NCBI GenBank assembly: GCA_949289455.1
Contig: CASEOA010000005.1
Coordinates: 1-39,175 of the forward strand
Origin: an uncultured Eubacteriales bacterium
Lineage (GTDB): Bacteria > Bacillota > Clostridia > Oscillospirales > Oscillospiraceae
Reading direction: 5' to 3'
Length of the DNA stretch: 39,175 bases
Positions within the stretch are counted from its first letter, which is position 1. Each line of letters starts with the position of its first letter. Of this stretch, positions 6,428 through 22,860 are shown in pieces. The position numbers and the translations under genes are program-made. The notes under the pieces are model-generated. The model was not told the DNA's origin and made no database searches. It saw only the letters and a program-made list of their open reading frames with translations.

Positions 6428-7231
6428 TTACCAGTTGTCCTTGTTCTCGGCATAGACCTGGGGCAGGATGGCGGCCAGGTGTCCAAACTCCTTCAGGTTG
6501 TGGGCAAACAGCCCCTGGACCACCTCCAGCGGCACCCTCACCCCGTCCGGCACCAGCTTTACCAGCTTGCCGTCCATGAGGCCGTAGCCGATCCAGAACC
6601 GGGAGCGGAGCACAATGCCCCCCTCCCCCTGCCGGACAAAGTGGGTCATGATGGCGGCCACCCCCTGGCCAGGGACGGGACCGTGGCCGTTAGCGCACAT
6701 CATGGTAGCGCAGGCCTCGGTACCCACCTTGGACTCGTCATAGCCCAGCTCATGGGGATAGCGGAAGTTGAGGATTACCTCATCGGGGCCCCCTCCCACA
6801 TCTTCCAGTACATGGTGGGCAGTGCCCCAGGTGCGCTCCCGCATAGGCAGGGACTGGTCCAGGGCTTTGGCCCGGTTCTGCTGCCGGGCGTAGAAGTGGT
6901 CCTCCGGGTCCCAGATCCGGTAGCGCAGATCCTCCAGGCCGTGCCAGGCAAACCACCACTCGAACATTTCGGGGGTGACCCCGGGCATAAAGGTGCGGTT
7001 AGCCAGATAACCGGCGCCGTTGGGCAGGACGCAATAGCCGATCTCACAGGGCAGGTCGCCGGGCAGAAACAGATCGTTGCGGTCCTCAATGTTCAGGGCC
7101 AGGGCGGGGTCCATGGGCCCGCCGGCCAACACCGCCAGCTTCTCCGCCGGGATGGGGGTAATGGGCAGATCATAAAACTTGGCATAGGGCAGAGCCCGCT
7201 CTTCGGCGGTCAGGGGCTTGCGTTCAGGCAT
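6428..7231 (-). CDS. phy: Phloretin hydrolase / 2,4-diacetylphloroglucinol hydrolase (PhlG) family
   Basis: 267 residues. It shows the PhlG/phloretin-hydrolase pattern: 'MPGVTPEMFEWWFAWHG' (about 82-98), 'AHHVLEDVG' (His139/His140), 'YPHELGYD' (Glu161) and a C-terminal His244-x3-Glu248. In P. fluorescens PhlG the zinc is held by two His and two Glu in an equivalent order, so metal binding is expected. The family cleaves a C-C bond between an acyl group and a phloroglucinol ring; phloretin hydrolase gives phloroglucinol plus 3-(4-hydroxyphenyl)propionate. It is the last gene after a flavodoxin-type reductase and an OYE-type reductase, and a chalcone isomerase is encoded 7 kb away, which favours a flavonoid substrate over an antibiotic. 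Ribosome site AAGGAAGGAA. Exact substrate is inferred. Confidence 0.85.
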   Translation of the reverse strand: MPERKPLTAEERALPYAKFYDLPITPIPAEKLAVLAGGPMDPALALNIEDRNDLFLPGDLPCEIGYCVLPNGAGYLANRTFMPGVTPEMFEWWFAWHGLEDLRYRIWDPEDHFYARQQNRAKALDQSLPMRERTWGTAHHVLEDVGGGPDEVILNFRYPHELGYDESKVGTEACATMMCANGHGPVPGQGVAAIMTHFVRQGEGGIVLRSRFWIGYGLMDGKLVKLVPDGVRVPLEVVQGLFAHNLKEFGHLAAILPQVYAENKDNW

Positions 7232-7277
7232 GACGATTCCTTCCTTCCGTTGGGATGAATAAGATTAGAATATGGCT

Positions 7278-7311
7278 TTATCCCTTAAAAGGCAAGCCTT
7301 CCAAGGGATAA
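7278..7311 (-). other. Intercistronic hairpin between fcr-like and phy genes
   Basis: Nine-base arms (7278-7286 with 7303-7311) enclosing a second five-base stem (7289-7293 with 7296-7300). There is only a weak T-rich run after it on the minus strand, so partial termination or mRNA processing that lowers phy relative to the reductase is more likely than full termination. Confidence 0.5.
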
Positions 7312-7325
7312 TGCACACAGGTTCT

Positions 7326-9317
7326 TTACTTGCCGATCTCGATGGCGGCCAGATAGGCGCTGCGGGTGGCCTGGTCCACCTTGCCGGGCTGGATGGCGTC
7401 GCCGATGACCCAGGTTTTCAGACCCTTGGCCTCGGCAGCCTGCTTCAGGGCGGTGATGTCCACGCTCTTCATACCCAGGGCGTAGAGAACGGTGTCGGCT
7501 TCCAGGGTCTGGACGCCGTCGTCATTCTCCACCTTCACGCTGGAGGGGGTGATCTCCAGGCAGCGGGTCTTGGGCAGCATTCCCACGCCGCACTTCTCCA
7601 TCTCCCAGATCAGGGCCTCCCGGTACATACCGAAGGACTCGTTGGCCAACCGGGGCAGCATCTCTACCACGGTGACCTCATGACCGGTCTTTTGGAGGAA
7701 GAGACCGGCTTCGCAGCCCACCAGTCCGCCGCCCACCATGACAATCTTGTGGCCGGGCTTCACCTTGCCGTCATACATATCCATAGCCTGATGGGCGTGC
7801 TCGATGCCGGGCACCGGGGGGCAGGTGGGCAGGGAGCCGGTGGCAAAGATGACACCGTCGGCGCCAAAGGAGCCGATGTTCTCCGGGGTGACAACGGTGT
7901 TGAGCCGCACGTCCACGTCCCGGCGCTCCACCTCCCGCACCAGCAGGTTCTTGAAGTTCATCAGGTCGGGCTTGTCGGTATCCACGTCGGTGAACCGCAG
8001 CAGGCCGCCCAGATAGGAGGACTGCTCAGCCAGGATCACCTTCTGCCCCCGGTCAGCGGCGGTGATGGCAGCCTGGAGACCGGCGGCGCCGCCGCCCACG
8101 ATGAGGACAGTCTCACACTTGGAGGCAGGGGCCAGGGTGTCGGGGTCAAAAGGCAGGTGGGCCAGGGGGTTGATGGTACAGTGGCCCACATAGAGGGCCA
8201 GCTCCTCGCTGGTAAAGGGCAGGTCGTCGTACCCCTCCTCCGGGGAGCCGGGGAAGCACTTGTAGCAGCGCAGGCAGCGGCGGATCTGATCCTCTCTCCC
8301 CTCCCGGGCCTTGTTGGCAAACTCGGGGTCGGCCAGCATCTGGCGGCCCAGGATGGCAAAGTCGATCTTGCCCTCGGCGATGGCCTGATCACACAGCTCG
8401 GGGGAATTGATGCCGCCCACAGCGCCCACGGGCAGCTTGGTATATTTCTTGATAATGGCAGCGCTGTCGATATTCAGGCCGTGGGCGTGGAACATGGAGC
8501 TCTCGGTACCCGACTTGACAGACGCCTCATAGATGCCGCAGGTCACATGGACGGAGGTGATGTAGGGCTCCGCCATGGCAATGAACTCGCCGGTCTCCTG
8601 GGGGGTGATGCCGCCGGGCTGATGGTCGGTGCCGTCGATTCGCAGCTCCACCAGGAAGTCGGGACCCACCGCCTCTCGGACAGCCTTCAGGATCATCAGG
8701 GGGAACCGGGCCCGGTTCTCCAGGGAACCGCCGTAGCTGTCGGTGCGGGTGTTCATCAGGGGGGAGAGGAACTGCGTGAAGATAAAGCCGTGGCCGCCGT
8801 GGATGAGCACGCCGTCAAAGCCGGCCTTCTGCATATAGGTGGCGGCTACGGCGAACTCCTTGGCCACCCGGATCATGTCGTCCTCATTCATGGGCCGCAC
8901 CTTCACGCCGGCCAGGTTCGTGGTCTCCACGGGGCCGATGGCCTCCTGACCGGGGCCGAAGGGCACCTTCTCCTTGCCGCAGTGAACCAGCTCGGCCAGA
9001 GCTACAGCGCCATGGCGCTTGATGCGGCGGGCATACTCCCCCACAGCGTCAAAGGTCTCCGGGTCCTCCTCGGGCTTGGCAAAATCGAAGGGCCGGAAGC
9101 CGGGGATGCGGACGGCGTCGGTAAAGTTGACGTCGGTCTCACCCACGATCACGCAGCCGTTGCCGCCTTTGGCGCTGCTCTCCAGCTTGCGGTAAGTAAA
9201 ATCCCGGGCAGCGGGGTTCTGGACGATGAGGCCGAAGGCCATGGGGGCGCTGACGATACGGTTGCGGTAGGTCACCTTGCCGACCTGCATGGGAGAAAAC
9301 AGATGGGAAAATTTCAT
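7326..9317 (-). CDS. fcr: OYE-type two-domain ene-reductase, probable flavanone-cleaving reductase
   Basis: 663 residues, the usual length for the enoate reductase/2,4-dienoyl-CoA reductase/BaiCD family. Residues 1-370 form an FMN TIM barrel ('HGGHGFIF' 173-180, 'SYGGSLENRARF'), followed by the iron-sulphur motif Cys348-x2-Cys351-x2-Cys354-x25-Cys380, an FAD Rossmann motif (GGGAAG, about 408-413) and a second nucleotide site (GGGLVG, about 529-534). Electrons from NAD(P)H would pass FAD, [4Fe-4S] and FMN to an activated C=C. Next to phloretin hydrolase and near chalcone isomerase, the best match by role is the flavanone/flavanonol-cleaving reductase of E. ramulus, which makes dihydrochalcone directly. 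Ribosome site AAAGGAG. The position usually occupied by Tyr in 'HGAHGY' is Phe178. The family is certain, the substrate inferred. Confidence 0.72.
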   Translation of the reverse strand: MKFSHLFSPMQVGKVTYRNRIVSAPMAFGLIVQNPAARDFTYRKLESSAKGGNGCVIVGETDVNFTDAVRIPGFRPFDFAKPEEDPETFDAVGEYARRIKRHGAVALAELVHCGKEKVPFGPGQEAIGPVETTNLAGVKVRPMNEDDMIRVAKEFAVAATYMQKAGFDGVLIHGGHGFIFTQFLSPLMNTRTDSYGGSLENRARFPLMILKAVREAVGPDFLVELRIDGTDHQPGGITPQETGEFIAMAEPYITSVHVTCGIYEASVKSGTESSMFHAHGLNIDSAAIIKKYTKLPVGAVGGINSPELCDQAIAEGKIDFAILGRQMLADPEFANKAREGREDQIRRCLRCYKCFPGSPEEGYDDLPFTSEELALYVGHCTINPLAHLPFDPDTLAPASKCETVLIVGGGAAGLQAAITAADRGQKVILAEQSSYLGGLLRFTDVDTDKPDLMNFKNLLVREVERRDVDVRLNTVVTPENIGSFGADGVIFATGSLPTCPPVPGIEHAHQAMDMYDGKVKPGHKIVMVGGGLVGCEAGLFLQKTGHEVTVVEMLPRLANESFGMYREALIWEMEKCGVGMLPKTRCLEITPSSVKVENDDGVQTLEADTVLYALGMKSVDITALKQAAEAKGLKTWVIGDAIQPGKVDQATRSAYLAAIEIGK

Positions 9318-9349
9318 TTGCTGCGTGCTCCTTTCAGAATTGTTGGGGC

Positions 9350-10294
9350 TTAAATACCGGGGAACTGGATATTTTTATACTTGGGCAACCGCTCGGCAAC
9401 GGTCTGACGCTTAACAGGGTCCATGAAGAAGCCCCCCTGAGTCTCGGCGATCTCATCGCAGTGGACGCCCCGGCCTTCCTCGGTGGTGCGGTCCCGCTCC
9501 AGGCCGTTCTCTGCGATGACAAATTTCCAGCGGCCGTCCTCCGTCTGCTCCAGGGTACCGCCGGCCCCGCACACCACACACTCAATGGGATAGTGCAGCC
9601 CCTTCCACTGGGGTTCCCCCAGGCACAGAGCGTTGGAGTGACAGTTGGGGCACCAGCCATAGTCCGGATCCCCCAACCATTTGCGCTCAGAGACCGGGGT
9701 GTTCAGCGCCTTCATGATGTTTTCACCCATCTCTCTGGCCCGGGCCAGCTTCTCCTCATAGAGCAGCACCTGGGCGGGGGCGGGCACCTGGGTGGCCAGA
9801 TACATGTCCACGATTTTAAAGCTGTTGGTAAAGGTGGTGGCCTGCATACACTCCAGAGCCATGGATTGCCAGGAGCGGGTGGAACCGCCCACGGCGATCA
9901 GTCCGCCAACCCGGTCCCGGGGTGCGATGGCGCCGATTTTGGTAAGGAATGCCGACTCGTAGGCCAGGTTGCGGTGCATGAACTTCAGAAAGAGGGAGGA
10001 AGGCATGAGGTCGTAGGTGGGCGCGGAGAAGATAACGGCGTCCTGGTCCAGCATCACGTCCATAATCTTCTTCTTGTCATCCTTTTTGTCCAAGGGACAG
10101 CCCACATTTTTGCCCATGGACATACCGATGGTACAGGAGGTACAGCCGTCGCAGTCCAACAGCTCATAATCCTTCAGATTGATCATGCGGACCTCGGCCC
10201 CCTGTTCCCGGCAAACCAGCAGAGCCTCCTTCAGCAGGATCTCACAGTTGCTGTCTTTCCGGCCCGCAGTGACGCCCATCACATGAAAGCCCAT
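9350..10294 (-). CDS. Flavodoxin-fold NADPH-dependent FMN reductase with C-terminal zinc ribbon (copy 1)
   Basis: 314 residues from the ATG at 10294, chosen because AAAAGGAG lies upstream and the start then matches its paralogue at 14401; an ATG at 10330 (12 residues longer) is the alternative. Residues 1-200 are a flavodoxin-like FMN domain of the multimeric WrbA/NADPH-FMN-reductase type with the 'DCDGCTSC' cysteine segment. The C-terminal 100 residues hold two CxxC pairs ('WCPNC', 'CVVC') of a zinc-ribbon or rubredoxin-like module. It is the first gene of an operon with the OYE-type reductase and phloretin hydrolase, so a role in flavonoid reduction, either as electron donor or as an ene-reductase itself, is inferred. 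A similar protein sits in the neighbouring chi operon. Confidence 0.8.
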   Translation of the reverse strand: MGFHVMGVTAGRKDSNCEILLKEALLVCREQGAEVRMINLKDYELLDCDGCTSCTIGMSMGKNVGCPLDKKDDKKKIMDVMLDQDAVIFSAPTYDLMPSSLFLKFMHRNLAYESAFLTKIGAIAPRDRVGGLIAVGGSTRSWQSMALECMQATTFTNSFKIVDMYLATQVPAPAQVLLYEEKLARAREMGENIMKALNTPVSERKWLGDPDYGWCPNCHSNALCLGEPQWKGLHYPIECVVCGAGGTLEQTEDGRWKFVIAENGLERDRTTEEGRGVHCDEIAETQGGFFMDPVKRQTVAERLPKYKNIQFPGI

Positions 10295-10378
10295 ATACTC
10301 TAGCTCCTTTTCATAAGTTTTTGCAGTCATATGGTAACACCTTTGGGCAAAAAAGAGAAATTAAGCTTTTTTGCGGGA

Positions 10379-10407
10379 TTGATTAAAACTGCTTATGAAT
10401 TTATAAT
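10379..10407 (+). promoter_or_regulatory. Sigma-A promoter of the first LysR gene
   Basis: TTGATT (10379-10384), exactly 17 bases, TATAAT (10402-10407). It lies in the 110-base divergent region shared with the reductase operon. Arms TAAGC (10362-10366) and GCTTA (10391-10395) could be part of a LysR site overlapping it. Confidence 0.75.
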
Positions 10408-10440
10408 ATGGGAAACCAGTGCAAAAGGAGGCCCCGTCCC

Positions 10441-11346
10441 ATGAACCTAGACCAGCTGCGCTATTTTCTCTCGGCAGCCCGGCACCGGAACTTCACCGAG
10501 GCGGCCAAGGAATTCTACATCACCCAGCCCGCCATCACCCACCAGATTTCCGCCCTGGAGGGGGAACTGGGCACCAGGCTTTTCCGCCGCACCACCCGCA
10601 GCGTAAGCCTGACCCGGGCCGGGGAACTTTTCCTGGAGGACGCCAAACGGATGCTGGACCTGGAGGAGCGAGCCAGAGAGCGTATTCGGCAGGCTGAGCG
10701 GATGGAAAACCTGACCCTCAAGGTGGGCTATCTGAACAGCCCCAGCCGCCACTTTCTGCCCCAGGTCATGCGGGAATACCGGAGCCGGTATCCCCAGGTT
10801 CGGGTGGAGCTCACCCGGCGGGACGCCGAACACCTGCGGGACGACTGTGAGCAGAGCACCTTTGACGCGGCCTTTTCGGTGCTCACCGATCTGCAGGACC
10901 TCAACCAGTACCACTGCCGGAAGCTGGCCACCGACCACTACTGCCTGGTCTGTCCCAAGGACCACCCCTGTCTGGAAAATGCGGCCATCCACTACGACCG
11001 CCTGGCCACCGAGTCTTTCGCCTGCCTGTCCCAGACCGGCGGAAGCTATATGTACAAGCAGTTCCGCCAGATCTGTAAAAACTATGGCTTTCTTCCCCGG
11101 ATTTTGGCGGAGTATCCCGCCATGGAGGATGTGATTTTTGCCGTGGAGTGCGGGCAGGCGCTGGCGATCCTGCCTTACCGCGTCCGGGCCTATATGCACA
11201 CCGACCTGGCCTTTCTCCCGCTGGACGGAGACAATCCAGCCATCGACCTGGGCATGGTATGGCGGCGGGAATCGGGCAACCCTGCCCTGCAATGGTTTGT
11301 GGAGCTGGTGAACCACTTCCTGGTGGAGCAGCCTGAGCTGTTCTGA
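10441..11346 (+). CDS. LysR family transcriptional regulator (copy 1)
   Basis: 301 residues. The start at 10441 has AAAGGAGG at 10425-10432, better than the in-frame ATG at 10408. The N-terminal winged helix (1-60; 'MNLDQLRYFLSAARHRNFTEA', 'ITQPAITHQISALEGELG') is classic LysR; residues about 90-295 form the periplasmic-binding-like effector domain. It is transcribed away from the flavodoxin reductase-OYE reductase-phloretin hydrolase operon, the normal layout for a LysR activator of that operon responding to a substrate or intermediate, here plausibly a flavonoid. It is followed by a strong terminator. Confidence 0.92.
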   Translation: MNLDQLRYFLSAARHRNFTEAAKEFYITQPAITHQISALEGELGTRLFRRTTRSVSLTRAGELFLEDAKRMLDLEERARERIRQAERMENLTLKVGYLNSPSRHFLPQVMREYRSRYPQVRVELTRRDAEHLRDDCEQSTFDAAFSVLTDLQDLNQYHCRKLATDHYCLVCPKDHPCLENAAIHYDRLATESFACLSQTGGSYMYKQFRQICKNYGFLPRILAEYPAMEDVIFAVECGQALAILPYRVRAYMHTDLAFLPLDGDNPAIDLGMVWRRESGNPALQWFVELVNHFLVEQPELF

Positions 11347-11370
11347 GAAAGTCCTGACTTTTATAAACTC

Positions 11371-11409
11371 GAGGCCCCCGATCCGAAAAACGGATCGGGG
11401 GCCTCTTTT
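11371..11409 (+). terminator. Terminator of the first LysR gene
   Basis: Perfect 15-bp stem (11371-11385 with 11391-11405), AAAAA loop, TTTT tail. It separates the LysR gene from the convergent membrane-protein gene and may act both ways. Confidence 0.92.
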
Positions 11410-11423
11410 GTCAAAGATGGGAT

Positions 11424-11930
11424 TCAGGGGTGATGGGGCACGCCCTTGGGGGGCTTCTGGCACAGGGCCATGGTGATGGGCATCCCGATGGCGAAGGTGA
11501 CGAAGGCCACCACCAGGGCTACCACATAGGTCAGGGGGAAACTCATGAGGAAGGCCATGAAGAAGGCCCCGGCGGGCATCGTATAGCCCATGGCAATGAA
11601 CATCATGATGAGGCTCATGAGGAAGGTCATCACGAAGGTGATGGAGGCCACCCGCAGGATATGGAACAGCAGACCGTTCTCATTCTTCACGCCGCAGAGG
11701 CGGGCAAAGCCGTCCCCCATGGCCTTCAGGTCGATGTAGGTGCCGATGGCGAAGGTCACGGAAAAGGCGGGAATGAAGTCCAGGGTGAGCTGCTGGAACA
11801 GGGGGCCCCACAGCACCATGCCCATCTCCCGGTACATGTTGCTGCCGGTAATGTACATGGGCAGGAATATGGCGAACATAATGGCGAAAATGGTGTTGAA
11901 TACAATGCCGAACTGGTCTTTACGGAACAT
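11424..11930 (-). CDS. Small four-span membrane protein, DUF2798-like
   Basis: 168 residues from the ATG at 11930 with GGAGGG eight bases upstream; longer in-frame extensions lack a ribosome site. Four hydrophobic spans are visible (about 10-28, 45-63, 88-113, 120-150), arranged as two similar halves in which 'F..F' and 'P' spacing repeats, as in DUF2798-type proteins. No catalytic residues or transporter signature are recognised. It is the last gene of the chalcone isomerase operon, separated from the LVIVD gene by 120 bases containing a hairpin. A role in uptake or efflux of phenolics or in membrane anchoring is possible but unproven. Confidence 0.6.
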   Translation of the reverse strand: MFRKDQFGIVFNTIFAIMFAIFLPMYITGSNMYREMGMVLWGPLFQQLTLDFIPAFSVTFAIGTYIDLKAMGDGFARLCGVKNENGLLFHILRVASITFVMTFLMSLIMMFIAMGYTMPAGAFFMAFLMSFPLTYVVALVVAFVTFAIGMPITMALCQKPPKGVPHHP

Positions 11931-11957
11931 CGAGGATCCCTCCACAGTGATAAAATA

Positions 11958-11985
11958 CCCCCGGTTCCCGGCGGGGAACCGGGGG
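11958..11985 (-). terminator. Hairpin, possible attenuating terminator between LVIVD gene and membrane-protein gene
   Basis: Perfect 12-bp GC-rich stem (11958-11969 with 11974-11985), four-base loop; on the minus strand it is followed by TATTTTAT. The tail is short, so read-through to the membrane-protein gene is likely. Confidence 0.55.
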
Positions 11986-12049
11986 GTGCGGCATAGCCGC
12001 ATGCAACAAGGAACGGAATCGCTGAAGTAATCGGAAGAGAGGGGACGGA

Positions 12050-13420
12050 TCAAATGCCATCCTTCAGGCGGAGGATATACATGCCGTCGTGCCAGGTGTC
12101 CATGTAGATGTAGCCACGGTCATCCACCACGCAGTCCTCAGTGGTGGCGATCATGGGCCCGGGCACCGGCACGTCAAAGAGCAGTTTTTCCGGGTTAGGC
12201 GGAATGAAGTAGGCCAGCTCCTTGATGTAGTAGGGGTCAGACACGTCGAACACCCGCATGCCGGCGTGGAAGTAGCAGCAGTACACCTTGTTGGGGTCGT
12301 CCTGGAGCCAGCTCTTGCCCATGGGCTCGTGGATGTTGTGGGGCCCGAAGGGGCCGTTGGCCCCGATACCACAGTCATTGAAGTTGGGATACGGGAAGTC
12401 GGCAGGCACCTCGGGATAGGGGAACTCGGCCACCAGGGTGGGATCGGCGGGGTCGGACACGTCGATCATGTGCAGGTTGTTCATGGGCTGGGCCCCCTTG
12501 TGGACCCCGTTGAGGATCTTGTCCTTGGTAAAGAAGGGGAACCGCTCCCCCTCGTTGGTGAGCACGGCATAGTTCCGGCCGGTGAGGCGCATGTAGGTGT
12601 GGCACTGGGCGCCGTCAAACTTGCCGGCAAAGGGGGGCTGTACCATGAGTTGGGAGATCAGCTTGGGCCGGGTGGGGTCGGAAATGTTCAGGATGATGCC
12701 GCCGCCGCCGAAGTAACCCATGTACAGCTGGTCGGGATGATCGGGGCAGATGTTGCAGGCGTGGCACATGCCCCAGAACTTCTCGGCGTCGTGGCCCACG
12801 GCGTAGGTGCCTTCCACCATGCCGTCCTTGAACTGCTTGGGCAGCCACCACCGGCCGGCCTCCACGGGATTGCGGGGGTCGGAGATGTCCAGGATGCGGA
12901 CGATGAAGCCCACAAAGCCGGGGCACTCGGCGGGCATGTACACATACTTGCCGCCGTTGTAGGCAAACCGGTGAACCCCCATGCCGTTGGGCACTCCGGT
13001 GTCCCAGTGGGACAGCAGCTCGGGGTGCAGCGGGTCTTTTTTCAGGTCATAGATCTGGAGCCCGCCCAGGGCGGGGTCGCCAGGCTTGATGCCGTGGAGG
13101 AAGGGCACGCCGCCCCCCAGGGCCACGATGAGCAGGCCGTCGGCCACCTGAACCTTGGGGGTGGACTGGGCAAAGTAGATGTTGGGGTCGCTGACGTACA
13201 CGATGCCGGCCACCACAGGGTTGGCGGGATCAGTTACGTCCACGATGTTGACCCCGTTGCCCTTGAAGGAGCCGCAGTACATGTAATACTTGCCCTCGTC
13301 GGTCTTGTACAGGGCCATCTGGAAGGCGTTGATCCCGTTCAGATCGGAAAAGCCCACCACTTCCATGTTTTTGATGTAACCCTGATTGTGTTCACTTTTT
13401 GCGTAGAAAGGGACAGACAT
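12050..13420 (-). CDS. LVIVD-repeat beta-propeller protein of unknown function
   Basis: 456 residues from the ATG at 13420 with GAGGTGA just upstream; a GTG at 13429 is the alternative. The chain is built of repeated segments of the type '(V/I)xIVDVTDPANPVVAG', '(R)ILDISDPRNPVEAG', 'ILNISDPTRPKLI', 'HMIDVSDPADPTLV', 'RVFDVSDPYYIKEL', the LVIVD repeat, which folds as a beta-propeller. No signal peptide is seen, so it is probably cytosolic. His- and Cys-rich stretches ('HDAEKFWGMCHACNICPDH', 'GPHNIHEP') suggest a metal site in the funnel. It lies between the second flavodoxin reductase and the membrane protein in the chalcone isomerase operon. Function is not known; an enzyme acting on flavonoid or phenolic intermediates is inferred from context only. 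Confidence 0.78.
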   Translation of the reverse strand: MSVPFYAKSEHNQGYIKNMEVVGFSDLNGINAFQMALYKTDEGKYYMYCGSFKGNGVNIVDVTDPANPVVAGIVYVSDPNIYFAQSTPKVQVADGLLIVALGGGVPFLHGIKPGDPALGGLQIYDLKKDPLHPELLSHWDTGVPNGMGVHRFAYNGGKYVYMPAECPGFVGFIVRILDISDPRNPVEAGRWWLPKQFKDGMVEGTYAVGHDAEKFWGMCHACNICPDHPDQLYMGYFGGGGIILNISDPTRPKLISQLMVQPPFAGKFDGAQCHTYMRLTGRNYAVLTNEGERFPFFTKDKILNGVHKGAQPMNNLHMIDVSDPADPTLVAEFPYPEVPADFPYPNFNDCGIGANGPFGPHNIHEPMGKSWLQDDPNKVYCCYFHAGMRVFDVSDPYYIKELAYFIPPNPEKLLFDVPVPGPMIATTEDCVVDDRGYIYMDTWHDGMYILRLKDGI

Positions 13421-13435
13421 TTCGCTCACCTCGGA

Positions 13436-14401
13436 TCAGCAGGGCTTGGAGGACTGGATGAAGTCCTTGTACTTGGCCTTGCGGGCCTTGGCCTCGTCGG
13501 ACTGCATCATCTCCCGGGCGGCAGCCTCGTTGCGCTGAATGTCGTCGCCGTGGATGAACTTGCCGGAGATGGAGTCGTGGGCGTGGGGAATCCACTTGTC
13601 GGCGTCAAACTCAAAGACATACTTGCCGTCCACATTCTTCATGACGCCCTCGGTGCCGCACAGGCAGCAGATGGCGGTACCATCCTCCTGGAGGTAGAAG
13701 TTGTTGCTGTGGCAGTAGGGGCACACGCCGGCAGGACCCTTGTAGTCCTCGTTGTACACGCCGTGGCCGGGCACAAAGGTGCCGTCGGCCACCTTCTTGG
13801 CGGCAGCGGCCAGGTCAGCGCCCATCTGGTGGGCCTTGGCAATGGCCTCGTCGTTCATCAGGATACTCAGGGACCAGGGGAAGCACTGGTTGTCGATGAT
13901 GGTCCACTTGGAGGTGAGGGCGTGGGTGGCGAAGTCGCACTGGATACGGGTGGCCCAGTCGGAGCCGCCGATGCCCAGGAAGGTGACCACCTTCTCCTTC
14001 AGGTACTTGGGGTCGATGGGCTTGCCGCCGTGCTCCTCGGCGATCTTGGTGGCGATCATCAGGTTGCCCCGATCCATACGGGGGCCAAAGCGGTCCATGA
14101 TGGTGTGGAAGATGCCGGGGGCGCACTTCTCAAAGATGGGGGCGGCCCAGATGATGCCGTCGGCGTCAAACATCTTGTCGATGAGCCACTGCAAATCGTC
14201 CTTGATGACGCAGCCGTTGCCCCGGCCGGAGAACAGGCTGGCCACGCAGGCCTTACAGCCGGTGCAGTGCTTGATGTTCAGCTGGTGGACGTTGACAAAC
14301 TCGATCTCCGCACCCATCTCCTGGGCGGCCATCAGGGCCTCCTTGCACAGAGAGTCGTTGGCTCCGTTGAGGGTGCCGGCGGACAGTCCCAAAACTTTCA
14401 T
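13436..14401 (-). CDS. Flavodoxin-fold NADPH-dependent FMN reductase with C-terminal zinc ribbon (copy 2)
   Basis: 321 residues. N-terminal flavodoxin-like FMN domain ('MKVLGLSAGTLNGANDSLC', 'HCTGCKAC' near 46-53, 'GIIWAAPIFEKCAPG'), then a C-terminal ribbon with 'VCPYC' and 'CCLC' pairs, the same architecture as the protein at 9350-10294. The two share an aligned start, the C-x-GC-x2-C segment and the ribbon, so they are diverged paralogues. It follows chalcone isomerase in the operon by 35 bases. The reported flavone reductase of Flavonifractor plautii was described as a new ene-reductase class acting on the C2-C3 bond; whether this protein or its paralogue corresponds to it needs sequence comparison. 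The reaction is otherwise unassigned. Confidence 0.8.
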   Translation of the reverse strand: MKVLGLSAGTLNGANDSLCKEALMAAQEMGAEIEFVNVHQLNIKHCTGCKACVASLFSGRGNGCVIKDDLQWLIDKMFDADGIIWAAPIFEKCAPGIFHTIMDRFGPRMDRGNLMIATKIAEEHGGKPIDPKYLKEKVVTFLGIGGSDWATRIQCDFATHALTSKWTIIDNQCFPWSLSILMNDEAIAKAHQMGADLAAAAKKVADGTFVPGHGVYNEDYKGPAGVCPYCHSNNFYLQEDGTAICCLCGTEGVMKNVDGKYVFEFDADKWIPHAHDSISGKFIHGDDIQRNEAAAREMMQSDEAKARKAKYKDFIQSSKPC

Positions 14402-14436
14402 ACTCTTCTCAACCTTTCTGTTTATGTAAATTTTAT

Positions 14437-15270
14437 TTATCGCATGGTGATGTAGCCGCGGTACTGGGTCAGATTGTCGCTGGCGGCCATATCGGAGAGG
14501 AACATGGACACAATGTTATAGTTGGACTTCAGGAAGGGGAACTGCTCTTGCTGGGCCCACTCGGGCTTCTCCATCTGCCGGGTACCCTCCACGGCGGCCT
14601 GGTACCACTCCTCGGGACCGTCAAACCACAGCTCCACCAGGCGGTGGAACTGGCAGCCCACCACGTCGTGGTAGACCCTGCTGGATACCAGCCGGTTGAC
14701 CTCGGGCCGGGCCTGGAAGTAGGGGACAAAGACCTCCTGGAACCACTTCTCGCCGGTCTTTTCACAGGGCCAGCGCAGTACAAACTGCCAGCGGTAGTTG
14801 GGCCCGTCGGCAATGGTGCGGCCCCTGCCCTTGTAGTCCTCCTCCCAGTTGATGGGCACATGGGCAAAGACGAAGGGCGGGCAGCCGTTGTCGCCGCCGG
14901 AGGCCCGGTGGTCGTCCCCGTCCATGTTGGCGGCGTGGGACAGGTCGGTGCCGTCATCGGGGATCATGCCCTGCCAGCGCAGTACCTCCACCGGCATCCG
15001 CTCGGTAAAGGCGTTGACGCTCATCTCCGGGGTCATCTCGTTGACCATCCAGTAGTGCTCGGTCATCTGCATCCGCCGGGCGCCGAAGCGTTCCCCCTCC
15101 GGCGGGGTGGGCAGGGCGTTGTAAAAGGCGTACTTGGTGCAATAGGGGGTGAATTTGCTGATGCTGTCGGGAACGTGGACGGAATAGAGCCAGTGCTGCA
15201 GCTTGTGGCGGTATTCCTCCCTGACGCAGTCCACGTAAATGACGCTGCGCATGGGGTGGTAATCAAACAT
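14437..15270 (-). CDS. chi: Bacterial chalcone isomerase
   Basis: 277 residues from the ATG at 15270 with AAAGGAGGA upstream; the frame extends further but without a ribosome site. The sequence closely resembles the Eubacterium ramulus chalcone isomerase as I remember it, with shared segments 'MRS(V/L)IYVDCV', 'VH(V/I)PDSIS', 'TKYAFY', 'KG(R/K)GRTI', 'EKP(E/S)WAQQ' and a C-terminal 'YRGYITMR', and nearly the same length (about 282). That enzyme is built of two ferredoxin-like halves related to EthD/chlorite dismutase and uses a catalytic His near residue 33; His32 here aligns with it. It interconverts flavanone and chalcone and rearranges flavanonols such as taxifolin to alphitonin. First gene of its operon, divergent from a LysR gene. 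Confidence 0.9.
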   Translation of the reverse strand: MFDYHPMRSVIYVDCVREEYRHKLQHWLYSVHVPDSISKFTPYCTKYAFYNALPTPPEGERFGARRMQMTEHYWMVNEMTPEMSVNAFTERMPVEVLRWQGMIPDDGTDLSHAANMDGDDHRASGGDNGCPPFVFAHVPINWEEDYKGRGRTIADGPNYRWQFVLRWPCEKTGEKWFQEVFVPYFQARPEVNRLVSSRVYHDVVGCQFHRLVELWFDGPEEWYQAAVEGTRQMEKPEWAQQEQFPFLKSNYNIVSMFLSDMAASDNLTQYRGYITMR

Positions 15271-15352
15271 TACTGCATCCTCCTTTGGGTCCGCGCCGGC
15301 CCCGATGCCGCTGTCCGCGGCAGGCGGCGCCTGGAACCTTGCCGGAATTTCT

Positions 15353-15365
15353 GTACATAGTGTAC
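15353..15365. promoter_or_regulatory. Palindrome, possible LysR operator for the chi operon
   Basis: GTACA-TAG-TGTAC is a perfect 5-3-5 palindrome in the chi/LysR divergent region. On the minus strand it overlaps TACACT, a possible -10 of the chi operon. No convincing -35 is seen there, as expected for an activated promoter. Confidence 0.4.
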
Positions 15366-15443
15366 CAAAGATTCCGAAAATCAGAAGCATCCTTTGGCGA
15401 CATGCCTGCAACAGATCGGTGCAGCGAGATGGGCGAAATGGGA

Positions 15444-15472
15444 TTGGCAGCCGAGTTGATTTTTGTTATGAT
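15444..15472 (+). promoter_or_regulatory. Extended -10 promoter of the second LysR gene
   Basis: TTGGCA (15444-15449), 17-base spacer, TATGAT (15467-15472) with a TG one base before the -10. Start site would be near 15479, some 30 bases before the ATG. Confidence 0.75.
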
Positions 15473-15509
15473 GCAATTACTGAAACAGATTTGGAAAGGA
15501 TGTACGGCC

Positions 15510-16403
15510 ATGGACGTGCGGCGGATCGAATATTTTGTGGGCGTGGCAGAGACGCTGAATTTCAGCAAAGCCGCCGAACAGATGCATATTTCCCACCAGG
15601 CCCTGTCCAAGCAGGTGCAGCTGCTGGAGCAGGAGCTGGGTGCCCGCCTGCTGGACCGTTCCACCACCCGGGTCGCCCTGACGGAGGTAGGCGCCAAGGT
15701 GTACGATGTGTTCAAGCCCCTTCTGCGGGAGCTGAACTACGGCTACACCGAGGTGCTCAACTTCATTGACCAGAAGCGCAGCGTATTGCGGGTGGGCTAC
15801 TTCAGCGGCCTGTCCTACAGCCGCATGATCGCCCCCATCCTGCGACATCTGGAGCGGCAGGCCCCCGACCTGAAAATCCACATCCTGGCCACCAACGTGG
15901 ATATGGTGCAGGAGCTGCTGGAGCGGGACAGCATTGACCTGGGCATCCTCCCCATGTTCGCTGAGATCGGCCTGGCCAACACCGTCAACTTCTCCGTCTA
16001 CTCCAGTCCCCTGTACATCATCGTCTCGGAACGCCACCCCTGGTATCAGAAGGAGTCCATCACCGAGGAGGATCTGGCCTCCGGCAATCTACTGGCCTAC
16101 GCCAACCGCCCCACCGAGGGGGATCTGGCCATGATGCCCGACCTGAAGGTGGCCAGCCGCCGGATCGTCAACAACTACGACACCTACATGGGCATGCTGC
16201 GCCAGGGGGACGTGTTCGGCCTCATCGGCGACACCCACAGCCGCCGGGAAGGCAATTTCAAGCACTTTCCCCTGCCGGAGAGCTGCCCCTCCCAGTCCTT
16301 CATCATCGCAGCCTACAAGCGGCTACACCCTCTGCGCCACCTTCTGAAAACATTGAAGGATCTCCATCTGGACGGGGTGATGCCCAATGAGCCCCAGGAT
16401 TAG
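15510..16403 (+). CDS. LysR family transcriptional regulator (copy 2)
   Basis: 297 residues; the ATG at 15510 has GGAAAGGA nine bases upstream, whereas in-frame upstream codons lie before the promoter. N-terminal winged helix ('MDVRRIEYFVGVAETLNFSKAAEQMHIS' region, residues 1-60) and a substrate-binding-like domain from about 90. Divergent from the chalcone isomerase operon, which it probably activates. It is not a close copy of the first LysR protein, so the two halves of the flavonoid locus may answer to different inducers. Confidence 0.92.
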   Translation: MDVRRIEYFVGVAETLNFSKAAEQMHISHQALSKQVQLLEQELGARLLDRSTTRVALTEVGAKVYDVFKPLLRELNYGYTEVLNFIDQKRSVLRVGYFSGLSYSRMIAPILRHLERQAPDLKIHILATNVDMVQELLERDSIDLGILPMFAEIGLANTVNFSVYSSPLYIIVSERHPWYQKESITEEDLASGNLLAYANRPTEGDLAMMPDLKVASRRIVNNYDTYMGMLRQGDVFGLIGDTHSRREGNFKHFPLPESCPSQSFIIAAYKRLHPLRHLLKTLKDLHLDGVMPNEPQD

Positions 16404-16475
16404 GCCCCCAGGCGGGCGGGCGTCCTTCCGCGTCCGTCAGCGGCGGAGCCCCGGCGCAAAGGCCTGAAAACGGCA

Positions 16476-16523
16476 AAACGGGGCCCGCCGCGGAACTGTA
16501 CTGTCCCACGGCGGGCCCCGTTT
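16476..16523. terminator. Bidirectional terminator between LysR and GntR genes
   Basis: Perfect 15-bp stem (16476-16490 with 16509-16523) with an 18-base loop; the arms end in AAA/TTT so each strand has a short T run. It lies between convergent genes. The rest of 16404-16527 shows nothing else. Confidence 0.8.
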
Positions 16524-16527
16524 CATG

Positions 16528-17178
16528 TTAATCTTTTGGTTTTACATACTCCATCAGCACCGGGATCTGCCGGTCGGTATTGGCTTGCAGGGCGGCGCAC
16601 ACGGCCTCCCCGTCCCCCAACCTGGCCCCCTCCAGCATGGCCTCAAAATCTTCCGGATGGCTCCCCCGCTCCTCCAGGCAGTTGGCGTAGATATACCGCA
16701 GCAGCAGCTGCTGGCCCTGGATGGAGATCATGCTGGCGTCCAACCGGCGGTTGCCGCAGTTGGCGTAAAAAACGCCCACAAACCGATTCACCGCCGTCAC
16801 CTCGCTCTGGACGGACCCCGCCCGCCGGTATTCCTCCAGATACTTCTCCAGCCCGGCCACAATGGTTTCCCGCTCCCCGTGCTCCATGGCCAGACGGATG
16901 GCCGCACAGTGGAGGGTCATGGCCAGCTGCTCAATCTCGATGATGTCGTGGGGCCCCAGGTCCAGGATATGGGCCCCCACATTGTTCTCATACACCACCA
17001 TCCCCTCCTGCTGGAGCCGGTTGATGGCCTCCCGGATGGGGGTGCAGCTCACCCCCAGCTTCTCCTGGAGCTCATTGACGTTCAGCTTGCTGCCCAAGGG
17101 GCGGCGCAGGGTGATAATCTCCCCCCGGAGGGTTTCATACACCTGATCCACCAGGGACTTCTTCTTGATCGCCGCCAT
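16528..17178 (-). CDS. GntR family regulator, FCD subfamily
   Basis: 216 residues from the ATG at 17178, preceded by GGAGGTG at six bases; an ATG ten codons earlier has no such site. The N-terminal winged helix (about 8-70) has 'SKLNVNELQEKLGVSCTPIREAINRLQQEGMV', the GntR signature; the rest is an all-helical FCD domain that usually binds a carboxylate through metal-held His residues. It faces away from the 2-oxoacid oxidoreductase operon across 221 bases that hold several CTTGCAAG-type palindromes, so it probably represses that operon and itself until a 2-oxoacid, amino-acid or acyl ligand appears. Confidence 0.9.
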   Translation of the reverse strand: MAAIKKKSLVDQVYETLRGEIITLRRPLGSKLNVNELQEKLGVSCTPIREAINRLQQEGMVVYENNVGAHILDLGPHDIIEIEQLAMTLHCAAIRLAMEHGERETIVAGLEKYLEEYRRAGSVQSEVTAVNRFVGVFYANCGNRRLDASMISIQGQQLLLRYIYANCLEERGSHPEDFEAMLEGARLGDGEAVCAALQANTDRQIPVLMEYVKPKD

Positions 17179-17200
17179 AGCGGGCACCTCCGACTTCATT

Positions 17201-17210
17201 TCTTGCAAGA
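17201..17210. promoter_or_regulatory. GntR-type palindrome 1
   Basis: TCTTGCAAGA, a perfect 10-bp palindrome 22 bases before the GntR start codon, well placed for autoregulation. It shares the core CTTGCAAG with the site at 17355-17366. Confidence 0.6.
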
Positions 17211-17306
17211 TATTATATCAGCTTCCCTCTCTAAATGCAAGGCCGCAGGGCATCATGCAATTCTCCCAAAGAATGCAGAAGCAATTTGACAAAACTGCTG
17301 AATTTT

Positions 17307-17332
17307 ATTTTGCATCTTGCATTTTGCAAAAT
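17307..17332. promoter_or_regulatory. GntR-type inverted repeats in the operon promoter region
   Basis: ATTTTGCA (17307-17314) faces TGCAAAAT (17325-17332), and ATTTTGCAAAAT at 17321-17332 is itself a 12-bp palindrome. The 17 bases at 17314-17330 recur exactly, inverted, at 18138-18154. A TTGACA lies at 17286-17291 and an extended -10-like TGGTATGCT at 17336-17344, so bound protein here would block transcription. Confidence 0.55.
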
Positions 17333-17354
17333 CTGTGGTATGCTTGAACTATAA

Positions 17355-17366
17355 ATCTTGCAAGAT
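17355..17366. promoter_or_regulatory. GntR-type palindrome 2
   Basis: ATCTTGCAAGAT, a perfect 12-bp palindrome 33 bases before the start codon of the P-loop gene, with an extra ACAAGAT directly after it. Likely operator just downstream of the promoter. Confidence 0.65.
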
Positions 17367-17399
17367 ACAAGATAAGCCATCTGACAGGAGGCGCGGATC

Positions 17400-18110
17400 A
17401 TGGCACAGCTCACTCCCCTCTCCACCCTGCTGGCCGCCGGAACCCAGACCAACTTCGCCTTTCTGGGCGAGGCCGGCGGCGGCAAAAGCGAGATTGCCCT
17501 CAATTTCGCCCTGGCCCTGGCCCGGATGGGCGGCAAGCCGGTGCACTTCTTCGACCTGGATATGACCAAGCCCCTCTTCCGGTCCCGGGACGCCCGGGAG
17601 CTGCTGGAGGCGGCCGGGGTCACGGTCCACTTTCAGGAGCAGTTCATGGACGCCCCCACCCTCACCGGCGGCGTGCGGCGGCTACTCAACGACCAGAACT
17701 GCTACACCGTGCTGGACGTGGGGGGCGACTACATCGGCGCCCGGTCCATCGGGGGCTACGCCCCCCTGCTCAACCGGGACGAGACCACCGTGTACTACGT
17801 TATCAACCCCTTCCGACCCTGGTCGGCCACCCTGGAGCACATCGACAGGGTGCTGGGCGAGACCCTGGGGGTCTCTCACGTGGAGCTTTCCCGGCTGCGG
17901 CTCATCGGAAACCCCAACCTGGGGCCGGGCACCACAGCGGAGGACGTGGACCACGGGGCCCGGCAGCTGGTGGAGATGGTGGGGCCCTACAAGCCGGTGG
18001 ACTTCTTCTGCGTGGAGGAGGGGTTGATTCCCCGCCTGCCGGAGCTGCCCGCCCCGGCGGTTCCCATCCGGCTCTATCTCACCTATCCCTGGGCGGAGCA
18101 GAGCGTTTGA
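17400..18110 (+). CDS. P-loop NTPase of unknown role heading the 2-oxoacid oxidoreductase operon
   Basis: 236 residues, AGGAGG eight bases upstream. It has a Walker A of the SIMIBI/MinD kind, 'GEAGGGKSE' (23-31), followed by 'HFFDLDMTKPLFRSR' (switch-like Asp), 'YTVLDVGGDYIGAR' (Walker B-like, 'DVGGD') and a C-terminal 'IGNPNLGPGTT'. No membrane span and no partner domain. The family is not one I can name; related proteins act in partitioning, cofactor insertion or enzyme activation. Being first in an operon that encodes TPP- and iron-sulphur-dependent oxidoreductase subunits, a maturation or ATP-dependent activation role is a reasonable guess, not a demonstrated one. Confidence 0.7.
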   Translation: MAQLTPLSTLLAAGTQTNFAFLGEAGGGKSEIALNFALALARMGGKPVHFFDLDMTKPLFRSRDARELLEAAGVTVHFQEQFMDAPTLTGGVRRLLNDQNCYTVLDVGGDYIGARSIGGYAPLLNRDETTVYYVINPFRPWSATLEHIDRVLGETLGVSHVELSRLRLIGNPNLGPGTTAEDVDHGARQLVEMVGPYKPVDFFCVEEGLIPRLPELPAPAVPIRLYLTYPWAEQSV

Positions 18111-18123
18111 TCTATGGCATACC

Positions 18124-18154
18124 CTTGCAATTCCAAGTTTGCAAAATGCAAGAT
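18124..18154. promoter_or_regulatory. Third cluster of GntR-type half-sites inside the operon
   Basis: CTTGCAA (18124-18130) and TTTGCAAAATGCAAGAT (18138-18154) lie in the 63-base gap between the P-loop gene and the ferredoxin gene. The second is an exact inverted copy of 17314-17330, pointing to a second controlled start or roadblock within the operon. Confidence 0.55.
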
Positions 18155-18173
18155 TCAAAAAGGAGATGTTACT

Positions 18174-18377
18174 ATGGCAAAGGTCCAAATCGTGGCGGAA
18201 CGGTGCAAGAGCTGCGGCTACTGCATCAAGTTCTGTCCCAAGCAGGTGTTGGCCATTGGCGACAAGGTCAACTCCAAGGGGTACGAGTACGTGGTGCCCG
18301 TCCATCCGGAGGATTGCATCGGCTGCGCCATCTGCGGCCGGATGTGTCCCGACGGCGCCATCGAGGTCTACAAGTAA
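18174..18377 (+). CDS. 2-Oxoacid:ferredoxin oxidoreductase delta subunit (2x[4Fe-4S])
   Basis: 67 residues from the ATG at 18174 with AAGGAGATG upstream. Two clostridial-type cluster motifs, 'CKSCGYCIKFCP' (11-22) and 'CIGCAICGRMCP' (about 46-57), each giving the CxxCxxCxxxCP pattern, so it carries two [4Fe-4S] clusters that take electrons from the TPP subunit to free ferredoxin. It precedes the alpha, beta and gamma subunits, giving the order delta-alpha-beta-gamma seen in Kor/Vor operons. Confidence 0.93.
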   Translation: MAKVQIVAERCKSCGYCIKFCPKQVLAIGDKVNSKGYEYVVPVHPEDCIGCAICGRMCPDGAIEVYK

Positions 18378-18392
18378 GGGGAGGTAAAGAAC

Positions 18393-19475
18393 ATGGCTAG
18401 AGTATTCATGAAGGGCTGCGAGGCCATTGCCGAGGCGGCCGTGCGGGCCGGGTGCCGGTTTTTTGCCGGCTATCCCATCACCCCGCAGAACGAGATCCCG
18501 GAGTATTTCTCCCGCCGTCTGCCCGAGGTGGGCGGCACCTTTGTCCAGGGCGAGTCTGAGGTGGCTTCCGTGAACATGGTCTACGGCGCCGCCTCCGCCG
18601 GCACCCGGTCCATGACCTCCTCCTCCTCTCCCGGCATCGCCCTGAAGAGCGAGGGCATCTCCTACTGTGCCGCCGCCCGCATCCCCATGGTGTACGCCAA
18701 CATCTCCCGGGGCGGCCCCGGCGTGGGCTCCATCCAGCCCGCCCAGATGGACTACTTCCAGGCCACCAAGGCCTCCGGCAACGGCGGCTTCCAGATGATG
18801 GTCTTTGCCCCCTCCACCGTGCAGGAGGCTGTGGACATGACCTACGCCGCCTTCGACTATGCCGACCGGGACCGTAACCCTGTCCTCATCCTGGCCGACG
18901 GCGTCATCGGCACCATGATGGAGCCGGTGGTCCTGCCTGAGATGAAGAGCGACGAGGAGGTGGCCGCCATCAAGGCATCCAAGCAGAGCTGGGCCTGCAT
19001 CGGCCACCAGCTGGACTACGCCCACCGGGCCTGGATTCAGCCCGGCCAGTGGCAGACTACCGTCATGCAGCAGGTCAACGAGGACGCCGCCGCCCTGTAC
19101 GCTTCCTGGGAGAAGGACGTGCAGGTGGAGGAGTACCAGGTGGCCGACGCCGAGATCGTCCTCACCGCCTATGGCATCTCCGCCCGCATCTGCAAGTCCG
19201 CCGTGGACCTGCTTCGGGCCCAGGGAATCAAGGCCGGCCTGATCCGGCCCATCACCGTCCACCCCTTCCCCTACGCCGCCTATGACCACATCGACTATGG
19301 CAAGTGCAAGGCCGTGCTGGACGTTGAGATGTCCATCCCCGCCCAGTTCGTGGAGGACGTGAAGGTGGCCGTCAAGGACCGCTGCCCCATTGAGACCTGC
19401 CTGTGCTCCGGCGGCAACATCATGAGCCGCGACAAAGTGATGGCCGCGGTGAAGAAGATCATGGAGGGGAAGTAA
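18393..19475 (+). CDS. vorB: 2-Oxoacid:ferredoxin oxidoreductase alpha subunit (VorB type)
   Basis: 360 residues, GGAGGT upstream. The pyrimidine-binding half of the TPP enzyme: 'GCRFFAGYPITPQNEIPEYF' (about 21-40), 'GESEVASVNMVYGAASAGTRSMTSSSSPG' region, and the C-terminal transketolase-like domain about 245-355. Length and the 'MKGCEAIAEAAVRAG' opening fit the 3-methyl-2-oxobutanoate dehydrogenase subunit VorB rather than pyruvate synthase. With beta, gamma and delta it oxidatively decarboxylates a 2-oxoacid to acyl-CoA, reducing ferredoxin. Substrate (branched-chain versus 2-oxoglutarate or aryl) cannot be proved from sequence, but the downstream Ptb-Buk favours a branched or short-chain acyl-CoA. 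Confidence 0.9.
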   Translation: MARVFMKGCEAIAEAAVRAGCRFFAGYPITPQNEIPEYFSRRLPEVGGTFVQGESEVASVNMVYGAASAGTRSMTSSSSPGIALKSEGISYCAAARIPMVYANISRGGPGVGSIQPAQMDYFQATKASGNGGFQMMVFAPSTVQEAVDMTYAAFDYADRDRNPVLILADGVIGTMMEPVVLPEMKSDEEVAAIKASKQSWACIGHQLDYAHRAWIQPGQWQTTVMQQVNEDAAALYASWEKDVQVEEYQVADAEIVLTAYGISARICKSAVDLLRAQGIKAGLIRPITVHPFPYAAYDHIDYGKCKAVLDVEMSIPAQFVEDVKVAVKDRCPIETCLCSGGNIMSRDKVMAAVKKIMEGK

Positions 19476-19476
19476 G

Positions 19477-20214: not shown

Positions 20215-20229
20215 AGGAGGTACGAGACT

Positions 20230-20778: not shown

Positions 20779-20790
20779 GGAGGGTCAGAC

Positions 20791-21702: not shown

Positions 21703-21715
21703 GGAGGTACACCCC

Positions 21716-22822: not shown

Positions 22823-22860
22823 CGAGGGGCTGCCGCAATACGCGGCAGCCCCTCGTTCGT
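22823..22860 (+). terminator. Terminator of the oxidoreductase-ptb-buk operon
   Basis: 14-bp stem (22823-22836 with 22842-22855), five-base loop, T-rich tail. Confidence 0.85.

Follow-up and report, generated by a model that had tools for sequence, protein, structure and literature searches.

The window analysed here, 39,175 nucleotides of contig CASEOA010000005.1 (C5), comes from a Flavonifractor sp. metagenome-assembled genome (MAG; 2.25 Mb, 83.9% complete, in 111 contigs), and it carries a flavonoid-degradation locus at positions 6428-22789. The locus consists of two divergent operons, each controlled by a LysR-type regulator, followed by a GntR-type regulator gene and a gene set for a 2-oxoacid:ferredoxin oxidoreductase, an acyltransferase (Ptb) and an acyl kinase (Buk) (Table 1). 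Our main proposal concerns the LVIVD-repeat beta-propeller protein encoded in the operon of the chalcone isomerase (CHI). We see an even chance that this protein is the hydrolase that cleaves the C-C bond of the auronol alphitonin, that the oxidoreductase, Ptb and Buk finish the same flavonol branch, and that the other operon, with an Fcr-like reductase, serves a flavone branch. The proposal draws on observed gene families, conserved neighbourhoods and co-occurrence, and on the predicted fold of the LVIVD protein. A preliminary description of this DNA had placed a locus for flavonoid degradation at 6428-16403, made of two halves that each have their own regulator, and this reading holds. All seven structural frames and both LysR frames are open at the claimed positions, with LysR1 divergent from FMN1 and LysR2 from CHI, but the locus does not end there and continues for approximately 6.4 kb, to position 22,789.

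The LVIVD gene follows CHI closely. In a sample of 199 genomes drawn from the genus, family and order (hereafter, the relatives), it was found in all nine CHI-carrying genomes and in one of the other 190 (Fisher p 9e-15), where the match is a paralogue of 39% identity; this and all other co-occurrence counts and p values ignore shared ancestry, which lessens their weight for our proposal. In a second, class-wide draw of 391 genomes, in which G412 repeats Alkalibacter and G596 repeats Mogibacterium, CHI is present in six genomes and LVIVD in four, all four among those six. We also kept the best 80 of 162 CHI relatives as loci (30 shorter than 15 kb and 50 longer), which represent 76 genomes as counted from the record names. 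LVIVD lies within 45 of these 80 loci and anywhere in the genome in 69 of the 76, the matches in three of the 69 (G203, G207 and G214) being partial. E. ramulus, to which the route from quercetin to alphitonin is credited (PMC11170127), also has LVIVD, though away from CHI. The phloretin hydrolase homologue Phy occurs in 35 of the 199 relatives, 26 of which lack CHI, and the possibility that LVIVD tracks Phy instead of CHI was rejected because only one CHI-less relative has LVIVD. Two further tandem LVIVD genes (98% and 66% identical to that of the window) are present in Flavonifractor sp. AGMB03687 (L183:9670-12495), away from CHI, and the other genes of the window locus were not matched within the surrounding 19.9 kb. 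CHI, FLR and LVIVD are also found together in two records of Clostridioides difficile (L056 and L059), for which flavonol use is predicted.

An AlphaFold model of the LVIVD protein, built with 39 family rows, is a confident propeller (pLDDT 89.4, pTM 0.91) with seven blades according to the strand list of the model. The best solved match in both fold and profile is the beta-propeller phosphotriesterase of Sphingobium sp. TCM1 (5hrm, fold E 1.8e-16, TM 0.63, profile E 3.6e-10; also 5ioj), with many other propellers following at weaker scores, and H153 of LVIVD aligns with a His of this enzyme, which we take to have a two-metal centre. However, identity in the fold alignment is only 17-18%, the phosphotriesterase acts on a wholly different class of substrates, and LVIVD is not filed as a member of its family. 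Q37, K92, H153, H277, H364 and E431, which in the model are placed at or beside the starts of the inner strands of the blades, are invariant in 39 of 39 rows, and this pattern suggests a metal site on the propeller axis; E293 is invariant in these rows as well.

The gene set downstream of LysR2 encodes a 2-oxoacid:ferredoxin oxidoreductase, with alpha, beta and gamma subunits and a ferredoxin, together with Ptb and Buk. The same block stands beside CHI in three other Flavonifractor genomes, and in rearranged form near CHI in Butyrivibrio, Pseudobutyrivibrio, Oribacterium, C. drakei, C. muellerianum (without Buk within the stretch covered) and an Enterococcaceae MAG. Among the 80 CHI loci, 20 contain the oxidoreductase alpha and beta genes, eight contain IorAB, and 22 contain either of these with Ptb and Buk. 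In two Leptolinea MAGs and one Clostridia MAG (L040-L042), the order is LVIVD, GntR, IorAB, Ptb, Buk, whereas c29 (described below), IorAB, Ptb and Buk are consecutive in Aminicella. Homologues of the GntR gene also recur: beside LVIVD and the Ior genes in L040-L042, and beside c29 in two Clostridium genomes. The clade of the window alpha subunit (at least 82% identity) is present in seven of the nine CHI genomes versus three of the 190 others (p 1.9e-9). A housekeeping role for this operon was considered and rejected, as 17 of the 199 relatives match it at E <= 1e-120 and 10 at >=82% identity.

The pathway that we propose has two branches. The preliminary description had envisaged a single linear route through chalcone, which now appears doubtful; two branches are more likely, with the FLR-type reductase, Fcr and Phy acting on flavones and flavanones and FLR, CHI and LVIVD on flavonols, although the split itself is our inference. 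In the former, an FLR-type reductase would act first, the Fcr-like reductase would open the C ring, and Phy would yield phloroglucinol and phenylpropionate. In the latter, FLR would reduce quercetin to taxifolin and CHI would contract taxifolin to alphitonin. Acting as a metal-dependent hydrolase, LVIVD would then cut the acyl-phloroglucinol C-C bond of the open diketone form of alphitonin and release phloroglucinol and 3,4-dihydroxyphenylpyruvate; hydrolysis at this bond gives exactly these two products. The oxidoreductase would convert the arylpyruvate to arylacetyl-CoA and CO2, and Ptb and Buk would convert the arylacetyl-CoA to 3,4-dihydroxyphenylacetate (3,4-DPA) with the gain of one ATP. 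Reduced ferredoxin from the oxidoreductase step may pay for the FLR reaction and is an obvious candidate for the electron donor of FLR. The sum, quercetin + 2 H2O -> phloroglucinol + 3,4-DPA + CO2, is balanced and involves no net redox change. The reactions of FLR and CHI and 3,4-DPA as the end product are taken from the literature (PMC7862272, PMC11170127); the reaction and metal of LVIVD, the use of arylpyruvate by the oxidoreductase and the role of ferredoxin as the FLR donor are what we infer. Catenibacillus decagia turns quercetin, taxifolin and alphitonin into 3,4-DPA by the E. ramulus route, and the authors of that work name 3,4-dihydroxyphenylpyruvate, together with phloroglucinol, as what the cleavage of alphitonin would hypothetically yield (PMC11170127).

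Seven of the 76 CHI genomes do not have LVIVD: C. caldaquaticum, C. nigeriense, a Clostridiales MAG, a Deltaproteobacteria MAG, Alkalibacter mobilis, Clostridium sp. CF012 and a Ruminococcaceae bacterium. Each of the seven has c29 instead, which is approximately 210 residues long and weakly similar to the DAPG/phloretin-hydrolase family, whose chemistry is that of the hydrolysis proposed for alphitonin. E39, H50 and H163xxxE167 are common to c29 and Phy. The model of c29 is of low confidence (pLDDT 63.9) and its best fold match, to phloretin hydrolases (E 7e-4), is therefore supportive only. The c29 search matched 17 of 45 genomes, of which five with weak matches (E approximately 1e-23 to 1e-30, to longer Phy-like frames) were not counted. 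The class sample contributed a single new LVIVD-less CHI case, G472, with c29 directly after a divergent CHI. In that genome, FLR (59%), CHI (34%, far from the E. ramulus type) and c29 (77%) stand in a row (L233:8436-10976). A wider claim, that LVIVD represents a new class of metal-dependent auronol C-C hydrolases with the unrelated, Phy-like c29 doing the same job in other bacteria, and that the whole amounts to a redox-neutral, ATP-yielding fermentation of flavonols in which ferredoxin pays for FLR, is put forward more tentatively.

In four c29-type genomes (C. nigeriense, L048, L066 and L210), genes of phloroglucinol-pathway families lie near CHI or c29. These families, checked for C. nigeriense only, are an SDR reductase, a cyclase-family hydrolase, a 3-hydroxyacyl-CoA dehydrogenase and a BKACE lyase. 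Judged from these genes, the four genomes possibly encode a near-complete route from flavonol to acetyl units.

Besides shared ancestry, several observations weigh against our proposal. The window alpha subunit is not recognized by TIGR03336 (IOR_alpha) and is instead of the VorB type, whose name suggests branched-chain 2-oxoacids; IorA and IorB of C. nigeriense do pass the NCBIfam cut-offs (IorA 680.5 versus 650.9 for TIGR03336). The full oxidoreductase/Ptb/Buk set is not seen in 58 of the 80 CHI loci, and is seen in 17 of the 50 longer ones. Two relatives, G083 and G091 (MAGs 84-87% complete), have CHI but not the >=82% oxidoreductase clade. In E. ramulus, no CHI or oxidoreductase genes were found within approximately 8-9 kb of LVIVD. 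H223, on the remaining blade of the propeller, is conserved in 25 of 39 rows of one alignment and in 60 of 60 of a second. No biochemistry of this LVIVD family was found in the literature searched, which left most subscription journals and all preprints outside. As to c29, its score against PF18089 is just below the cut-off (21.1 versus 22.7 bits, E 2.5e-4), and Gln replaces Glu143 of Phy in five of six c29 rows. Five of the searched genomes, of which four lack LVIVD, had themselves supplied the sequences for the c29 profile; when these five are excluded, c29 is found in three of three LVIVD-less versus four of 37 LVIVD genomes (p 0.0035), a weaker contrast. Finally, c29 is also present in five of the 38 LVIVD genomes, and the two genes are adjacent in C. 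puniceum, so that LVIVD and c29 are not strict alternatives; the adjacency speaks against a strict swap.

The best of the other explanations, which we nevertheless regard as unlikely as a whole, is that the locus performs only the published work of FLR, CHI, Fcr and Phy. LVIVD would then be an accessory protein, for example one that binds flavonoids, the cleavage of alphitonin would occur spontaneously or be the work of a paralogue from the Phy family, and the operon for the oxidoreductase, Ptb and Buk would serve ordinary amino-acid fermentation and be adjacent by chance. Phy-family proteins do perform such chemistry on acyl-phloroglucinols, a Phy homologue is present in all nine CHI genomes among the relatives, the VorB-type oxidoreductase fits this explanation, and neither an activity of LVIVD proteins in flavonoid breakdown nor a link between them and quercetin was found in the literature searched. 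However, the 26 CHI-less relatives with Phy contrast with the one CHI-less genome with LVIVD and the three of 190 with the oxidoreductase clade. The association also recurs, with varying gene order, in Butyrivibrio-type bacteria, Clostridium, the Enterococcaceae MAG and Leptolinea, and such a number of invariant His and Glu residues would not be expected of a protein without a catalytic role.

Somewhat less probable still is that LVIVD does act as an enzyme within the CHI branch but catalyses a different reaction, the opening or tautomerization of alphitonin or of the flavanonol chalcone, while another hydrolase cuts the C-C bond. C. puniceum would then represent the complete form, and both the adjacency of LVIVD and c29 in this species and the five genomes that have both proteins agree with this idea. 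Against it, 33 of the 38 LVIVD genomes do not have c29 and would need a further partner (some have longer Phy-like proteins), and c29 is present in seven of seven LVIVD-less CHI genomes and in G472.

As to the joining of the two halves, the window MAG is the only genome of the relatives in which they are joined; in the other eight CHI genomes, Phy was matched on contigs without CHI and on no CHI-bearing contig. That the junction is an assembly artefact between two real but unlinked operons is nonetheless improbable. The incompleteness and fragmentation of the MAG, and the coincidence of the join with a strong hairpin (15-bp stem) between the convergent ends of the two halves, are in line with an artefact, but the GC content is alike on both sides of the junction (0.58-0.68 in the 19 genes for which it was calculated), Pseudoflavonifractor sp. 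An85 has the matching CHI operon order, and Phy and CHI lie less than 10 kb apart in two of the 80 CHI loci, those of the Deltaproteobacteria MAG and Clostridium sp. CF012.

Table 1. Features of the flavonoid-degradation locus and its surroundings in the window
Feature	Position	Strand	Evidence or remark
Phy, phloretin hydrolase/DAPG-hydrolase family	6428-7231	-	PF18089 264.6 bits (cut-off 22.7); solved phloretin hydrolase 5xe5, E 3.5e-34
Fcr-like OYE/FAD reductase, candidate flavanone/flavanonol-cleaving reductase	7326-9317	-	Oxidored_FMN and Pyr_redox_2
FMN1, distant FLR-type flavodoxin-like reductase, the second of the locus and partner of Fcr	9350-10330	-	7D38, E 1.7e-26
LysR1, divergent regulator of FMN1-Fcr-Phy	10441-11346	+	HTH_1 and LysR_substrate; listed open reading frame starts at 10408
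Terminator-like hairpin between convergent ends	11371-11405	. (+ in one listing)	-35.2 kcal/mol, z -6.7
Small multi-pass membrane protein, distant DUF2798-like	11424-11930	-	DUF2798 E 0.011, below cut-off; hydrophobic segments
LVIVD beta-propeller protein, proposed C-C hydrolase of auronol (alphitonin)	12050-13429	-	LVIVD repeats; AlphaFold2 pLDDT 89.4; fold match 5hrm
FLR (FMN2), flavone/flavonol reductase	13436-14401	-	7D38, E 5.5e-123; active-site residues kept
CHI, bacterial chalcone isomerase, E. ramulus type	14437-15270	-	4D06, E 7e-92; Pfam Chalcone_N; catalytic residues kept
LysR2, divergent regulator of the CHI operon	15510-16403	+	58% to the LysR that neighbours CHI of Pseudoflavonifractor sp. 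An85
GntR/FCD regulator, separating the CHI half from the oxidoreductase operon	16528-17208	-	homologues beside LVIVD/Ior and c29
P-loop ATPase-like gene heading oxidoreductase operon	17400-18110	+	CbiA E 5.8e-4, below cut-off; recurs ahead of oxidoreductase genes
Ferredoxin-like gene (oxidoreductase delta subunit)	18174-18377	+	two 4-Cys motifs in the sequence
2-oxoacid:ferredoxin oxidoreductase alpha (VorB type)	18393-19475	+	NF005507 440.5 bits (cut-off 399)
2-oxoacid:ferredoxin oxidoreductase beta	19477-20214	+	TPP_enzyme_C
2-oxoacid:ferredoxin oxidoreductase gamma	20230-20778	+	PF01558 POR
Ptb, phosphate butyryl(acyl)transferase	20791-21702	+	PF01515 above cut-off; NF004472 327 bits, below cut-off 399
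Buk, butyrate (acyl) kinase	21716-22789	+	TIGR02707 459 bits (cut-off 289)
Terminator-like hairpin after Buk, weak T tail	22823-22855	+	such sites no commoner there than in shuffles

By its sequence, the window CHI is a bacterial chalcone isomerase of the E. ramulus type, a type of enzyme that isomerizes (2S)-flavanone and also turns flavanonol into auronol. The close relationship to the E. ramulus enzyme that had been pointed out earlier holds at 49% identity, and His33, Asp36 and His73 of that enzyme correspond to H32, D35 and H72, which are invariant in an alignment of eight rows. Going by CHI, the closest relatives that bear a name are Flavonifractor sp. AGMB03687 and An82, and F. plautii falls within the same genus sample. 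FLR is closely related to 7D38, the F. plautii flavone reductase with a solved structure, with similarity reaching into the C-terminal tail, and it keeps G106, W149, H271 and I275, at which mutants lost their activity or were strongly reduced in it (PMC7862272). According to the same source, NAD(P)H is not used directly by FLR, and the electron chain that supplies the enzyme is described there as still unexplored.

The other half was also largely read correctly in the preliminary description: an OYE domain and an FAD/NAD domain were found in the 7326-9317 frame, and Phy belongs to the phloretin-hydrolase family, with H112, E143, H244 and E248, which we take to be the metal ligands of PhlG, all present. 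Phy scores below the NCBIfam PhlG equivalog (NF047887, 114.4 versus a cut-off of 600) and is thus not PhlG itself. The four remaining genes, previously regarded as unknown, are not all so, because FMN1 and FMN2 belong to the described FLR-type family; LVIVD and the membrane protein gene remain. FMN1, although homologous to 7D38, has D and L at the E91 and K92 positions, shares 26% identity with the FLR of the CHI operon and is not classed as FLR proper. Its gene stands with those for OYE and a LysR regulator in F. plautii (90% for FMN1, 92% for OYE) and in E. ramulus (85% and 75%), the latter with the window order LysR-FMN1-OYE. E. ramulus ATCC 29099 has two matches to the OYE protein (75% and 42%), either of which may be the characterized Fcr. 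FMN1 is probably a counterpart of the second F. plautii Flr, described as lacking apigenin activity (PMC8398226). LysR1 probably starts at 10441 rather than at the listed position, because a -10-like box ends at 10407 and the family alignments begin at residue 12.

Small multi-pass membrane proteins are frequent in CHI/FLR loci (the window, L034, L039, L062 and L077), although their families differ, with DUF1097 in two and weak DUF2798- or DUF3566-like similarity elsewhere; they are candidates for a transport or membrane-linked function. A GC-rich hairpin with a T-rich tail (11958-11985, minus strand) lies between the LVIVD and membrane protein genes and could reduce the expression of this last gene of the operon. 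In close Flavonifractor relatives (L012-L014), a different LysR occupies the position of LysR2 beside CHI, indicating regulator swapping.

Known systems resemble the locus in part. In F. plautii, CHI and FLR are likewise adjacent, with consecutive locus tags (A4U99_05920/05915; PMC7862272), and strain ATCC 29863 (L038) has CHI, FLR, the membrane protein and LVIVD together, but in the draft F. plautii genome neither Phy nor the FMN1-Fcr pair shares their contig. In the work on F. plautii FLR, 14 genes considered as partners of chi and phy were expressed in Escherichia coli and assayed on apigenin (PMC7862272); therefore, a hydrolase of the flavonol branch would have gone unseen, and the term 'LVIVD' is absent from the main text of that paper. 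The flr-fcr-phy genes of C. butyricum have the same order as FMN1-Fcr-Phy, but there is no CHI and taxifolin is cleaved to a hydroxydihydrochalcone, not contracted to alphitonin (PMC11868195). The flavonol route of E. ramulus and Catenibacillus decagia runs through the intermediates proposed here, but the part of its description covered here puts forward no gene for alphitonin cleavage or later steps (PMC11170127). No such gene, nor one for the steps to the acid, was found in the literature searched, where alphitonin is mentioned together with phenylpyruvate only in PMC11170127. The phloroglucinol cluster of C. scatologenes (PMC10470551) illustrates the fate of the phloroglucinol product; it starts from phloroglucinol, its gene families occur in some c29-type CHI loci, and it has no counterpart among the genes found in 6428-22789, the only part of the genome considered for this.

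The locus names candidates at once for alphitonin cleavage, for the steps to the acid and for the electron donor of FLR. Quercetin is a flavonol commonly present in the diet. It is converted by gut bacteria to 3,4-DPA (PMC11170127), and the proposed benefit to the bacterium would be one ATP together with redox balance. CHI with LVIVD or c29 may serve as genetic markers that distinguish degraders using the auronol route from CHI-less degraders such as C. butyricum.

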